NCBI GenBank assembly: GCA_013285985.1 | Contig: JABDGR010000010.1 | Span: 1-38,643 of the forward strand | Source: Verrucomicrobiota bacterium | Lineage (GTDB): Bacteria; Verrucomicrobiota; Verrucomicrobiia; Opitutales; JABDGR01 | Length of the DNA: 38,643 bases | Direction: 5' to 3' | In this document: piece by piece, positions 4,805 to 11,323 of the stretch | How positions within the stretch are numbered: position 1 is the stretch's first letter | Layout: the number at the start of each line of letters is the position of its first letter | Notes under the pieces: model-generated | What the model saw: the letters and a program-made list of their open reading frames with translations, nothing else | Told to the model about the DNA's origin: nothing | The model's database searches: none | Position numbers and translations under genes: made by a program

Positions 4805-5965
4805 ATGCCGTTTGATTTCGATACCGTCCCCGACCGCCGCCACACCGGCAGTCTGAAGTGGGACAAATACCAGGGCCGCGACATCCTGCCATTGTGGGTC
4901 GCGGACATGGACTTCCTGTCGCCCCCGGCGGTGATTGACGCCCTGCGCGCCCGCGCCGAGCACGGGATTTACGGCTACACCGCACCCACGGACGAGGCCG
5001 CGCAGGCGGTGGTGGACTACCTGCGCCAGCAGTATGGTTACGCCATCAAGCCGGAATGGATCGTGTGGTCGCACGGGCTGGTGCCAGCGCTGAGCATCGC
5101 GTGCCGGGCGTATGCGAAGGAAGGCGAGGGCGTCCTCGTTTGCACTCCTGTTTATCCGCCGATGCTTTCGTGCCCGGTCAACATGAGCCGCCGGCTGATT
5201 CCCGTGCCGCTGAAAATCACGGGCGAGAAATGGGAATTCGACTGGCCCGCGCTCGAAAAGTCCGTCACGTCCGACACGCGCGTATTTATTTTGTGCAGCC
5301 CGCACAACCCGGTGGGCCGGGCGTGGACGCGCGCGGAGCTGGCGCAGGTCGCGCAATTTTGCGCGAAGCACAACCTCGTGCTGGTATCCGACGAAATCCA
5401 TTGCGACCTGGTAATTGACGATGGAGTAAAACACACGGTGACGGCGTCACTCGGGCCGGAAGTTGAGGCGCGGACAGTTACGCAGATGGCCGCGAGCAAG
5501 ACCTACAATCTCCCGGGCCTGGCGTGTGCGTTCAGTGTGATTGCAGACAAGAAGCTGCGCGCGGCGTTTGTGCAGGCGGCGGCGGGATTGGTCACCGAGG
5601 TCAACGCTTTCGGTTACGCGGGAACCATTGCGGCTTTCCAAAAGGGCGAGCCCTGGCGGCGCGAATTGATTGCCTACCTGCGCGGCAATCGCGATTTACT
5701 CTATGACTTCGTCAAGACCCGTTTGCCGCAATTGAAATTAGTGCCGATGCAGGCGACATATCTGGCGTGGCTGGATGCGCGCGCGCTGGGCGTCGATAAC
5801 CTGCAAAAGTTTTTTGAAGACGCGGGCGTGGGCCTGTCGCCGGGACATATTTTTGGCGACGCGGGGCGCGGCTTTGTGCGGCTGAATTTTGGCTGCCCGC
5901 GCGCGACGCTGGTGGAAGCCCTGAAGCGGATGGAGAAGGCAGTGAGCGCGCGGAAAGCAAAATAA
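4805..5965 (+). CDS. MalY/PatB-type PLP C-S lyase or aminotransferase
   Basis: A 386-residue fold-type I PLP enzyme of the MalY/PatB family, which cleaves cystathionine and other C-S bonds and is related to class I/II aminotransferases. The start (FDFDTVPDRRHTGSLKWDKY) and LPLWVADMDF are hallmarks of this family. PLP-binding features are YGYT (about 57-60), SPHNPVGR (about 165-172), SDEIHCDL with Asp196, and SKTYNLPG with the Schiff-base Lys232. Length is normal. Its promoter region is shared divergently with arsR. The ATG has a pyrimidine-rich leader and no Shine-Dalgarno sequence. A role in methionine or cysteine metabolism is likely; the true substrate is not visible. Confidence 0.92.
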   Translation: MPFDFDTVPDRRHTGSLKWDKYQGRDILPLWVADMDFLSPPAVIDALRARAEHGIYGYTAPTDEAAQAVVDYLRQQYGYAIKPEWIVWSHGLVPALSIACRAYAKEGEGVLVCTPVYPPMLSCPVNMSRRLIPVPLKITGEKWEFDWPALEKSVTSDTRVFILCSPHNPVGRAWTRAELAQVAQFCAKHNLVLVSDEIHCDLVIDDGVKHTVTASLGPEVEARTVTQMAASKTYNLPGLACAFSVIADKKLRAAFVQAAAGLVTEVNAFGYAGTIAAFQKGEPWRRELIAYLRGNRDLLYDFVKTRLPQLKLVPMQATYLAWLDARALGVDNLQKFFEDAGVGLSPGHIFGDAGRGFVRLNFGCPRATLVEALKRMEKAVSARKAK

Positions 5966-7401: not shown

Positions 7402-8592
7402 ATGTCCGACAACTCCCAGCGTTTTGTGGCGAAGCACGTGGCCAGCCTGCCCCGTTCGGGCATCCGCGACTTCTTTGCGGTCGTCGCGCAAATGCCGGAT
7501 GCGATTTCGTTGGGTATTGGCGAGCCGGACTTCGTCACGCCCTGGCATATTCGCGAGGCGGCGATTTACGCGCTGGAACAAGGCAAGACGCACTATACCG
7601 ACAACCGCGGGCTGCTCGCGCTGCGCAAGGCGATTTCCACGTATGTGGAAAAACATTTTCAGCTCGCCTACCGACCTGAGGACGAAATTTTGACGACCGT
7701 CGGTGTTTCCGAGGCATTGGACATCGCCCTGCGCGCGCTGCTGAATCCCGGTGATAAAGTCATTTACCACGAGCCTTCCTACGTTTCCTATCATCCCAGT
7801 GTGACGCTGGCGCACGGGCTGGCGATTCCGGTGGCCACTTCCGCGAGCGACCAATTTGCGCTCGACCCGGCCAAACTCGCCGCGGCGTGGCAGCCGGGCT
7901 GCAAGGCCCTCATCCTTAATTTTCCGACGAACCCAACCGGCGGCGTGGCCGACCGCGCGCGCCTGGAAAAGATTGCGCGCTTTGCCGTCGAGAAGGACTT
8001 GATTGTCTTGAGCGACGAAATTTACGCCGAGCTGACCTTTGAAGGCGAACACGTCTCGATTGCCACGCTGCCCGGCATGCGCGAGCGCACGGTGTTTTTG
8101 CACGGCATGTCGAAGGCCTTTGCGATGACGGGCTTCCGCCTCGGCTTTGCCTGCGGGCCGGCGCCGCTCGTCGAGGCGATGATGAAGGTGCACCAGTATT
8201 GCATGATGTGCGCGCCCATTCTTTCGCAGGCGGCGGGCATCGAAGCGCTGCGCCACGGCTGGGACGATGTTCAACGCATGCGCGAAAAATACCACCAGCG
8301 GCGCGACTACATCGTGAGCCGCTTCAACGAAATGGGCCTGCCGTGCCATTCGCCGCGCGGGGCGTTCTACGCTTTCCCCAGCGTGCAAAATTTCGGCCTG
8401 TCCTCGATGGATTTTGCCAAGCGCCTGCTGCAGGAGCAAAAGGTCGCGATGGTTCCCGGCACGGCCTTTGGGCCGGGCGGTGCGGGCTTTGTGCGCGCGA
8501 GTTTCTCCACGGGCTACGACCAGATCATCCAGGCCTGTGACCGCATCGCGAAGTTTTTGGAGACGGTGGCGGCGGAAAAAGGGAAAAAATAG
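7402..8592 (+). CDS. Class I/II aminotransferase, alanine-transaminase-like
   Basis: A 396-residue PLP aminotransferase. Features are ISLGIGEPDFVTPWHIR (about residues 35-51), YTDNRG (about 65-70), NFPTNPTGG, SDEIYAEL with Asp205, and HGMSKAFAMTGFRLGF with the Schiff-base Lys238; the final Arg is in FVRASFSTGYDQ. The sequence resembles Bacillus AlaT (YugH) and PatA, and the Lrp-type regulator upstream supports an AlaR-AlaT-like pair. It probably exchanges amino groups between alanine and 2-oxoglutarate, although aspartate, aromatic or N-acetyl-diaminopimelate activity is possible. The leader is a long pyrimidine tract (CTCATTCCTCTTTTTCTTC) and there is no Shine-Dalgarno sequence. Confidence 0.92.
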   Translation: MSDNSQRFVAKHVASLPRSGIRDFFAVVAQMPDAISLGIGEPDFVTPWHIREAAIYALEQGKTHYTDNRGLLALRKAISTYVEKHFQLAYRPEDEILTTVGVSEALDIALRALLNPGDKVIYHEPSYVSYHPSVTLAHGLAIPVATSASDQFALDPAKLAAAWQPGCKALILNFPTNPTGGVADRARLEKIARFAVEKDLIVLSDEIYAELTFEGEHVSIATLPGMRERTVFLHGMSKAFAMTGFRLGFACGPAPLVEAMMKVHQYCMMCAPILSQAAGIEALRHGWDDVQRMREKYHQRRDYIVSRFNEMGLPCHSPRGAFYAFPSVQNFGLSSMDFAKRLLQEQKVAMVPGTAFGPGGAGFVRASFSTGYDQIIQACDRIAKFLETVAAEKGKK

Positions 8593-8684
8593 GCAACTGG
8601 GCGCTTGTTTGCCGGCATTAGTCAGATTGCATTTTTATTATGCAGTCGTCTTTTCGGCCTTGGCGCCTTAATTGTTGATCATTC

Positions 8685-10220
8685 ATGTCTTCCATTCCGC
8701 GCAGTGTGGCCCTCGTGGGCCGGCCCAATGTGGGCAAAAGCCGCCTTTTTAACCGATTGGCCGGGCGGCGCATTTCCATTGTCCACGACCAGCCGGGGGT
8801 GACGCGCGACCTCGTCACCACGCAGGTGCCACCGGAGCGCGGCGGGTACCTGCTCATGGACACCGGCGGCATCGGCCTCACGCCCGGGGCGTCATCCGCG
8901 GCGATTGTCAAAGCGACGGAGGAACAGGTGGACTTCGCGCTGGCAGCGGCGGGGCTGGTGCTGTTTGTCACCGACGCCCATGCGGGACTGACGACGGCGG
9001 ATGAGCGCATCGCCGAAAACCTACGCTCCTTTCGCAAGCCAACGATCCTCGTCGTCAACAAGGCCGACGATATTCGGCGCGAAAATGAAGCAACTGGAGA
9101 ATTTTCCCGCCTAGGTTTCAAGCAGGTCGTTTACGTCTCCGCCGAGCACGGGCACGGCATCGACCCCTTGCTGAACATAATTTTCCAGATCATTGGCAAA
9201 ACGCCGGAAGCGGTGGCCCCGGTCGGCGCAGTTCCCGAGCGCGTGAAGTTTGCCCTCGTGGGCCGGCCCAATGTGGGCAAGTCGTCACTCGGCAACGCGC
9301 TGTTGAATGACAAGCGCCTCATCGTCAGCGAAGTACCCGGCACCACGCGCGACGCCGTGACGATTGACTTCGATTACGTAACGCCGGAAGGCGAAAAGTG
9401 GCCGTTTACGCTCTATGACACGGCGGGCATGCGCCACGGCTCGCGCGTGGACACCTCGGTCGAATATTTTTCCCAAAACCGCACGCGTGAAGCCATCGCG
9501 GAAAGCGACGTGGTGTTCCTCGTGCTCGACGCGCTCGACGGCGTAACGAAGCAGGACAAGATGCTCGGCGGCGAAATCCTTGAGCAAGGCAAGGGCCTGG
9601 TCATGGTCGTCAATAAATGGGACCTCGCGCAAAAGCGCTTCGAGCGCGAGCCGCTCGAGGGCTATGCGAACATCGGCGAGTTCCGGAAGTCGTTTTTACG
9701 CGCGGTGGAGTCGCAGATGTTTTTCCTGCCCGCCTCGCCGGTGATTTTCACCTCGGCGCTTGAAGGCACGGCGGTGACGGACATTTTGAAGGAGGCGCAC
9801 GCGCTATTCACCATGATGCGCAAGCCGCTGCCGACCTCACTGCTCAATCGCATGATTCGCGGATTCCTCGAGGCCAGCCCGCCCAAGTTTGTCGGCACCA
9901 AGCGCTTCAAGTGTTACTATGCGGTGCAGGTCGCGCGGCATCCGCTTACCATCCGCATGTATTGCAACCGCGCGGAAAAGCTGGACGACAGTTATGCACG
10001 GAGCCTGGCCAGCAATTTGCAAACGACCTTCAAATTGCGCGGCTGCCCGATGAAATTTGATCTGATTGGCAAACCCCCGAGGTCGGAACGGCCTTTGTTC
10101 CCCAAAAATCCCCCGCCCGTCAAAGGCACGAAAACGTGGGTCAGAGGAGCGAAACCCTGGGCCAAGGGAGCGAAACCGCAGCCCGGCAAGAAGCGTCTCC
10201 CGCGGACGGCGGAAGGGTGA
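8685..10220 (+). CDS. der: Ribosome-assembly GTPase Der (EngA)
   Basis: A 511-residue double GTPase needed for maturation of the 50S subunit. Two G domains are visible. The first has GRPNVGKSRLFNRL (about residues 12-25), DTGG and NKAD. The second has GRPNVGKSSLGNAL (about 192-205), DTAGMR and NKWD. A C-terminal KH-like domain follows (to about 465; PPKFVGTKRFKCYYAVQ). The protein is longer than typical Der because of a basic tail with near-repeats WVRGAKP and WAKGAKP and ending KKRLPRTAEG. In the first G domain the G1 serine/threonine is present (KS). The leader has no Shine-Dalgarno sequence. Der lies beside the ribosome-linked typA-rhlE pair. Confidence 0.96.
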   Translation: MSSIPRSVALVGRPNVGKSRLFNRLAGRRISIVHDQPGVTRDLVTTQVPPERGGYLLMDTGGIGLTPGASSAAIVKATEEQVDFALAAAGLVLFVTDAHAGLTTADERIAENLRSFRKPTILVVNKADDIRRENEATGEFSRLGFKQVVYVSAEHGHGIDPLLNIIFQIIGKTPEAVAPVGAVPERVKFALVGRPNVGKSSLGNALLNDKRLIVSEVPGTTRDAVTIDFDYVTPEGEKWPFTLYDTAGMRHGSRVDTSVEYFSQNRTREAIAESDVVFLVLDALDGVTKQDKMLGGEILEQGKGLVMVVNKWDLAQKRFEREPLEGYANIGEFRKSFLRAVESQMFFLPASPVIFTSALEGTAVTDILKEAHALFTMMRKPLPTSLLNRMIRGFLEASPPKFVGTKRFKCYYAVQVARHPLTIRMYCNRAEKLDDSYARSLASNLQTTFKLRGCPMKFDLIGKPPRSERPLFPKNPPPVKGTKTWVRGAKPWAKGAKPQPGKKRLPRTAEG

Positions 10221-10273
10221 GTTGTATAAAAGTGTGCAAATCGTTAATCGGAAAAGTGGCTAGGATTTCAGTA

Positions 10274-10675
10274 TCAAGATTGCGCTATCCAGTCTCTGAT
10301 AAAAATCAAACGTTCTTCCTCTGGCTTCTCTAAAACAAGTTTCTTGAATTTCGACCGTTTTGATGGATGAATAATTGAATCGGCAAATTTTCTAATAACC
10401 ATTATATCTCCGTTCCATAAGGAGGGTTCTTCGCCTGTAGGTTTCGTTAGCCCAATTTCCTTTAAAAAATTCCCATATTCCGGAGATGAATCAGGAAAAT
10501 TAACCCGGCCCGTTTTACTAGTTTCGCGTACAAACTCCATGAGTTTATCCACGGCATTTTCACCAATTTCCATTCTATTTGCTTTCTTGGTTGATTTTTT
10601 GCTTCTGCGGCGCACCGGTATTTCGATGGCAAACCTGATATTTTGCTTGCCTGGAGTGGTAGGGAAATGAGGCAT
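10274..10675 (-). CDS. Hypothetical protein of the low-GC islet
   Basis: A 133-residue soluble protein that I do not recognise. It has a basic segment near the N-terminus (PVRRRSKKSTKKANR, about residues 20-34) and then a mostly helical, charged region ending EERLIFIRDWIAQS. There is no signal peptide or membrane segment. The ATG at 10675 was preferred because it lies 10 nt after the stop of the preceding small gene; an ATG at 10723 in the same frame would overlap that gene by 38 nt. It would be the last gene of a three-gene islet operon. Low GC and lack of recognisable motifs leave the function open. Confidence 0.55.
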   Translation of the reverse strand: MPHFPTTPGKQNIRFAIEIPVRRRSKKSTKKANRMEIGENAVDKLMEFVRETSKTGRVNFPDSSPEYGNFLKEIGLTKPTGEEPSLWNGDIMVIRKFADSIIHPSKRSKFKKLVLEKPEEERLIFIRDWIAQS

Positions 10676-10685
10676 AGGAAAATTT

Positions 10686-10898
10686 TCAATCGTTAGATGT
10701 GGTAACAATATAAACAAGGCCATCTGATCGGAATGACACCCAGATGGTATGCTCCCTCCTGTAAATCCATATTTCAACAATCCCCATGTTTCGTATTGAG
10801 GGCTCAATTTGAGGCCCATTTTGGATTTCGTCAGGACGACCCATCGCTTGTAGAACTTGTTGGCTATTCAAGCGGGTTGGAAAACGTCGGGAACACAT
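10686..10898 (-). CDS. Small BamE/SmpA-like hypothetical protein
   Basis: A 70-residue protein. The pattern LNSQQVLQAMGRPDEIQ, then IVEIWIYR and HTIWVSFRSDGLVYIV, resembles the small beta-alpha fold of the SmpA/BamE superfamily: a helix with G-x-P, then strands ending in a DG turn. There is no lipoprotein signal, so it is not a BamE itself. The ATG at 10898 lies 5 nt after the stop of the Cys-rich gene and is preceded by ACC, as at many starts in this window; an upstream TTG at 10925 would overlap that gene by 22 nt. It is the middle gene of the islet operon. Confidence 0.5.
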   Translation of the reverse strand: MCSRRFPTRLNSQQVLQAMGRPDEIQNGPQIEPSIRNMGIVEIWIYRREHTIWVSFRSDGLVYIVTTSND

Positions 10899-10903
10899 GG
10901 TTT

Positions 10904-11158
10904 TTAAACAATCAACGTTCGCCAATCACGGCCAAGAACGGTGTAGCAATCGGGGCAAAATGGGTGACCAAAAGCAACTGGCTTGGGGCAACGAACGCAC
11001 TGCCAAGGCCTCCCGCTGTTATGTCCTTTAATCCATTGATCCATTGCGGGAAATGGATGTCCCCAATCAACACTTGCTGGAGAGACAATACACACTCCAG
11101 AGCAAGCGATTTTAGTGTACCCACACTTTCTGCAAGGATATGTGTGCGGGAAAAGCAT
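10904..11158 (-). CDS. Small Cys-rich zinc-ribbon-like protein
   Basis: An 84-residue protein with three CxxC pairs (Cys9/12, Cys54/57, Cys68/71) plus Cys19 and Cys23, enough ligands for two metal sites. The tetrapeptide GHPF occurs twice (WGHPF at 32-36, FGHPF at 63-67), which hints at an internal duplication. A role in zinc binding is likely from the cysteine spacing; DNA, RNA or protein binding cannot be told apart. It starts with one of the few real Shine-Dalgarno sequences in the window (AAGGAG, 11 nt upstream), and that site lies inside a small hairpin. It is the first gene of the low-GC islet operon. Confidence 0.6.
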   Translation of the reverse strand: MLFPHTYPCRKCGYTKIACSGVCIVSPASVDWGHPFPAMDQWIKGHNSGRPWQCVRCPKPVAFGHPFCPDCYTVLGRDWRTLIV

Positions 11159-11169
11159 TTTGGTCTAAT

Positions 11170-11186
11170 CTCCTTGAAACAAGGAG
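11170..11186 (-). promoter_or_regulatory. Hairpin over the ribosome binding site of the Cys-rich gene
   Basis: The plus strand reads CTCCTTG AAA CAAGGAG, a perfect 7-bp inverted repeat with a 3-nt loop. On the minus-strand mRNA the proximal arm contains the AAGGAG ribosome binding site of the gene starting at 11158. If the hairpin forms, it would hide the site, so translation could depend on unfolding, a bound ligand or temperature. Confidence 0.5.
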
Positions 11187-11282
11187 TATTTTCTTAACCT
11201 TTTAATGTTAGGCAAATGGTAAAAAACCGTGCAAAACCCACAGCTATTTTCAGACCTCACTACGCGAGGCAGCATTGTGAAG

Positions 11283-11313
11283 GGTAGGGACGGCTCTCCG
11301 AGGCGTCCCTACC
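11283..11313. repeat. Long hairpin after rhlE, REP-like or terminator
   Basis: GGTAGGGACG (11283-11292) pairs perfectly with CGTCCCTACC (11304-11313). Inside, after one G-G mismatch, CTC pairs with GAG around a TCC triloop. It begins 10 nt past the rhlE stop codon. No T run follows on the minus strand, so it is not a standard intrinsic terminator. It may be a dispersed palindromic repeat that ends or protects the typA-rhlE transcript; no second copy was noticed in this window. Confidence 0.55.
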
Positions 11314-11323
11314 TCAAAGAGAA

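Follow-up and report, generated by a model that had tools for sequence, protein, structure and literature searches.

We propose that the AT-rich islet between der and rhlE is a small accessory set of three ORFans, probably gained laterally from a phage or another mobile source and placed behind the aminotransferase-der gene pair. The window, meaning the whole 38,643-nucleotide stretch of DNA that was analysed, contains this islet in the 1,103 bases that separate the stop of der (10220) from the stop of rhlE (11324). Three reading frames of 84, 70 and 133 aa lie there, all on the minus strand and separated by gaps of 5 and 10 nt; their coordinates agree with the three small, tightly spaced genes of the preliminary description:

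10904 to 11158, minus strand: ORF1, 84 aa, Cys-rich and double zinc-ribbon-like, from the ORF list and the Cys pattern
10686 to 10898, minus strand: ORF2, 70 aa from an ATG (79 aa if it starts at the TTG at 10925), from the ORF list
10274 to 10675, minus strand: ORF3, 133 aa from an ATG, pI 9.9, from its coding-like composition and its model

The longest stop-free run in the islet spans 197 codons; when the islet was simulated 3000 times with a Markov-1 model, 8 of the simulations reached this length. A plus-strand ORF of 154 aa (10733-11197) was considered as a further gene and rejected as antisense, its composition being at the level of random sequence (-0.082 per aa). Scanning the window for Rfam families and tRNA genes gave no matches, and the islet yielded neither an integrase nor a transposase.

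The composition of the islet differs clearly from that of its surroundings. The low GC described for about 1.1 kb between der and rhlE is borne out by windowed GC, which is 0.423 at 10221-11250 vs 0.591 for the whole window (42.3% vs 59.1%), 0.434 over 10221-11323, and lowest in the 500-base profile at 10251-10750 (0.398). In 445,423 bases sampled from this genome, the window among them, 30 of 4255 1-kb windows have a GC at or below the islet value of 0.423, and these 30 include the islet's own as well as those in a 2,500-N run. The islet ORFs have a GC3 of 0.38-0.42, whereas der, rhlE and typA have 0.77-0.79.

Other AT-rich segments (<48% GC in 500-base windows) number 16 in 406,780 bases, one N run excluded; these bases come from 21 further stretches of the same genome, i.e. 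19 contig starts taken by number plus contigs C24 and C42, which were sampled because of matches. The islet is therefore far from the only AT-rich accessory segment in this genome, and some of the others carry defence genes. When ten ORFs from nine of these segments were scanned, four matched McrBC-type, DndB/DpdB or methyl-directed REase models and six were without a match in both Pfam and PADLOC. Pfam recognises an AAA_5 protein beside an McrBC component, plus a DndB protein; DpdB and the methyl-directed REase come from PADLOC. As to individual loci, L085 (3366-6703) encodes McrB-like AAA_5 and McrC-like proteins in an AT-rich segment, followed by an AT-rich ORF (8317-8874) without a Pfam match; L098 (8314-9956) encodes a DndB/DpdB-like protein next to a membrane-like one, the segment having 43.7% GC; and L087 (9505-11916) encodes an 803-aa AT-rich protein with no Pfam or PADLOC match. 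On C42, a transposase-like ORF, IS1-type by eye, lies near an AT-rich segment (L048 2587-3540).

The islet had been placed inside a ribosome-assembly region, and this holds only in part. The genes der, rhlE and typA are real by NCBIfam models, Der and TypA scoring over the cut-offs and the helicase matching RhlE models below theirs; the der-rhlE adjacency, however, is unseen in the relatives examined. The der gene is present in 124 of the 132 genomes of the order, this one included, and in no other genome do der and RhlE lie within 10 kb of each other, judged by eye among the matches listed, the nearest pair being ~15 kb apart (G008). Thus, no conserved der-rhlE region is demonstrably interrupted. 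We then compared flanks of up to 1.5 kb at 29 der loci besides the window, the best-scoring of the 124 and none of them from the same family. An aminotransferase gene precedes der at 26 of the 29; behind der, one other gene family is common to 14 loci, and the remainder differ. Neither rhlE nor the islet ORFs follow der at any of these loci of the order (0/29), so the islet is absent from this place in the related genomes compared. Five typA rows at these loci were taken as GTPase cross-matches inside der. With the pair kept upstream and varied genes downstream, the islet thus lies at the end of the conserved pair, in a place of variable gene order. It is at a synteny break, as acquisition predicts.

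A native origin has to be weighed at this point: the genes may be old in the family and may have become AT-rich through drift, as weakly expressed accessory genes do, the foreign look coming from the lack of a closely related sampled genome. The collection contains no second genome of the family and AT-rich segments are frequent in this genome, both of which fit such a history; the difference between GC3 values of 0.38-0.42 and 0.77-0.79 is nevertheless large for drift alone, and the break coincides with the end of a conserved gene pair. We therefore regard a native origin as unlikely.

Searches with the three proteins returned no convincing relative for any of them. Against Pfam, NCBIfam, PADLOC and PHROGs, with E up to 10, the three ORFs have sub-threshold matches at most; the PADLOC anti-phage models match none of them up to E 10, and PDB sequence searches gave no E below 0.1. 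In the genome collection, the window alone was recovered with ORF1 and ORF3 in the order (177 genomes each, E <= 0.001), with ORF3 in the class (384 genomes, E <= 0.001) and with ORF2 in the phylum (288 genomes, E <= 0.01). The best order-wide rows outside the genome itself have E values of 0.0031 (ORF3) and 0.0047 (ORF1), and the weak order-wide rows for these two ORFs (E up to 1), many with stops, were dismissed as noise. Peptide patterns run over contigs of 84,980 species gave nothing for ORF3 and one false match for ORF1, a Martelella locus (L047) where the match covers only 22 residues and is antisense to an ABC-transporter-like ORF. A candidate ORF1 paralogue on C42 (L048 921-1052; E 0.0037, 34%), which sits amid long overlapping GC-rich frames, was likewise rejected. 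The collection includes no second genome of this family, and the genome itself is 50.2% complete; the ORFan status could stem from divergence or from poor sampling. Bacterial ORFans are treated in the literature, for example in PMC1559721 and PMC2245933.

As for a donor or mobile relative, phages gave nothing convincing for ORF1 and ORF3 (six ORF1 rows at E 0.4-0.8), plasmids no convincing relative of ORF1-3, and viral contigs no convincing match. Two features of a lateral islet are present, namely a composition unlike the genome and absence from the same place in relatives (0/29). The earlier suggestion of transfer, made from composition, thus gains from the odd composition, the lack of relatives found and the synteny break; it fits yet falls short of proof, because no donor, same-family relative with an empty site, integrase or clear boundary was found.

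The reading frames themselves differ in how well they are supported. The eight cysteines and paired GHPF motifs first noticed in ORF1 are there, with Cys at 9, 12, 19, 23, 54, 57, 68 and 71, forming CxxC, CxxxC, CxxC and CxxC pairs, and GHPF at 33 and 64. Four C-x(2,3)-C pairs, a pattern picked after ORF1 had been seen, occurred in none of 50,000 simulations of 86 codons; the sample has 3826 stop-to-stop frames with 60 aa or more, and two of these, one being ORF1 itself, carry the pattern. A Shine-Dalgarno-like AAGGAG lies 11 nt before its ATG, within a small hairpin. The amino-acid composition of ORF1, at -0.20 bits per aa, is below that of random frames (mean -0.09). We attribute this to its content of Cys, His, Trp and Pro, and as it stands it is evidence against ORF1; the case for a real gene therefore depends on the Cys pattern together with the Shine-Dalgarno-like site. 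The second half may be read as a zinc ribbon from its cysteine spacing, though under Pfam cut-offs: C54/C57 and C68/C71 form two CxxC knuckles within the expected distance of ~10-20 residues, and neither Zn_ribbon_3 (PF13248; E 0.026, 14.4 bits) nor DZR_2 (PF18912; 12.7 bits) exceeds its curated cut-off of 27. The likeness to these families lies in the C-x2-C-x10-C-x2-C of the second half; the first half differs from them in its CxxC-x6-CxxxC and a long spacer with GHPF.

ORF2 had been called BamE-like, and this is not supported. By eye, it shows the helix pattern V-L-x-x-x-G-x-P-D and the strand pattern W-x-Y ... G, which we take to resemble BamE/SmpA; a difference is that ORF2 shows no evident signal peptide, by eye. 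The PF04355 profile misses ORF2 up to E 10, on which we reject the identity, and a fold search with the low-confidence ORF2 model (pLDDT 53.8) likewise gave nothing at E <= 0.001. Nor do Pfam, NCBIfam, PADLOC and PHROGs, searched with E up to 10, offer any other match to ORF2. PF04355 itself has two matches in this genome, both on contig C7 and none on C10, the contig of the window; another gene is thereby found at 23.6 bits, the cut-off being 23.2. The composition of ORF2 (0.03 bits per aa) is above 99% of random frames of 150 codons and only slightly above random.

ORF3 has a coding-like composition (0.058 bits per aa, where 99% of the 150-codon random frames are below -0.006), and six long AT-rich genes have a higher average (0.095 bits per aa) than either ORF2 or ORF3. 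An alternative ORF3 of 181 aa would start at the ATG at 10819 and overlap ORF2; its 48-residue N-terminal extension scores -0.062, and the start at 10675 is therefore favoured. The predicted model (pLDDT 60.7) has five helices, with a basic, low-confidence N-terminus and a C-terminal part predicted to be helical, and has no fold match in PDB or BFVD at E <= 0.001. The AlphaFold models of ORF2 and ORF3 were made without alignments and are poor.

Considering that the composition of ORF1 is below random, that of ORF2 is only slightly above it and no mobility gene is recognisable, the islet may instead be a decayed relic of a larger element, in which at least one frame, ORF1 or ORF2 above all, is no longer a functional gene. 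However, the three frames are intact and tightly ordered, ORF1 has retained eight paired Cys and a Shine-Dalgarno-like site, and ORF3 has a coding-like score (0.058 bits per aa); we consider decay to be quite improbable.

Four sequence elements were noted in the islet and at its edges:

11170 to 11186, minus strand: perfect 7-bp hairpin CTCCTTG-TTT-CAAGGAG, which holds the AAGGAG of ORF1
10224 to 10240, plus strand: left copy of an imperfect 17-nt direct repeat (14/17), weak
11219 to 11235, plus strand: right copy of the same repeat, 995 from the left copy, weak
11283 to 11313, no strand assigned: REP-like palindrome GGTAGGGACGGCTC/GAGGCGTCCCTACC, one of six genome copies

The hairpin is also terminator-like on the plus strand; it folds with a z of -1.86 (13 of 200 shuffles fold as well) and has no second copy with 2 or fewer mismatches in the 445-kb sample. 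GTTAGGC, which we take to be the attC core of integron cassettes, occurs at 11207 on the plus strand, on the start side of ORF1. Equally good repeat pairs turned up in 46 of 1500 zone pairs taken from the genome and in 14 of 1000 shuffles, the zones having been picked after the repeat was seen; a flanking direct repeat that is weak and within the post-hoc chance range speaks against acquisition.

The REP-like family (GGTAGGGACGNCTC...GAGNCGTCC) has its other copies in this genome (G000) at C12:8670, C24:371, C35:6273, C46:117 and C65:5636, and those on C12, C24 and C46 are longer, forming a double palindrome with CCCTACC at its end. It is also found in 3 of 34 other genomes scanned, with clusters at about 135-144 nt spacing in G032. 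Five of the six copies have a bin of <=45% GC within ~1.25 kb, as do 581 of 2950 positions drawn at random and 32 of 142 intergenic gaps. The threshold of this test was post hoc and n=6, and the sixth copy is 371 bases from a contig end. The proximity of these palindromes to AT-rich segments is a lead only. Close to the copy on C65, at ~5172-5303 on the minus strand (L004), is a broken Y1-transposase (RAYT-like) frame, and two more weak Y1_Tnp matches are on C15 and C44.

Two possibilities involve these elements. First, a cassette may have moved site-specifically between the 17-nt repeats (10224 and 11219) or beside REP-like palindromes. With up to 3 mismatches allowed, the 445 kb contain no match to the left repeat copy besides itself and the right copy, and the 5/6 against 32/142 ratio points the same way; yet a repeat of this quality falls in the range expected by chance post hoc, the sample has no second islet with it, and the REP threshold was chosen after the data had been seen, with n=6, which leaves such a cassette highly improbable. 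Second, REP-like palindromes of the family at 11283-11313, with Y1/RAYT-type remnants in the genome, might mark entry or exit sites of AT-rich islets, with 10221-11250 as one unit; we hold this to be very unlikely. If the link between REP and islets were true in complete genomes, it would offer a simple route for accessory genes to settle beside housekeeping genes in this order.

Lateral acquisition is the explanation that we favour. The composition, the frames with their spacing and the synteny break are observed; origin, operon and function we infer. The islet would have been acquired from a phage or other mobile source, then settled behind the conserved aminotransferase-der pair. ORF1-3 would be read as one short minus-strand operon from upstream of 11158, because of the tight spacing and the one Shine-Dalgarno-like site. 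ORF1 is a predicted zinc-binding protein and ORF3 a putative basic helical protein, and both may act on nucleic acid. The products are probably nucleic-acid-binding and of phage or mobile-element origin, and the best-supported guess is that they bind nucleic acid or have a regulatory role within an accessory module of the defence or phage type. Since other AT-rich segments include defence genes, a defence or counter-defence function may be offered as a tentative guess.

On the whole, this resembles a commonplace acquired accessory islet, of which the genome has many. Its significance is mostly slight: three ORFans are added, with a structural hint for one of them, ORF1. Bacterial genomes contain short, AT-rich ORFan islets. 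The present islet is alike in being short, AT-rich, without detectable relatives and beside conserved genes; there is no essential difference, and the Cys pattern of ORF1 adds the structural hint.
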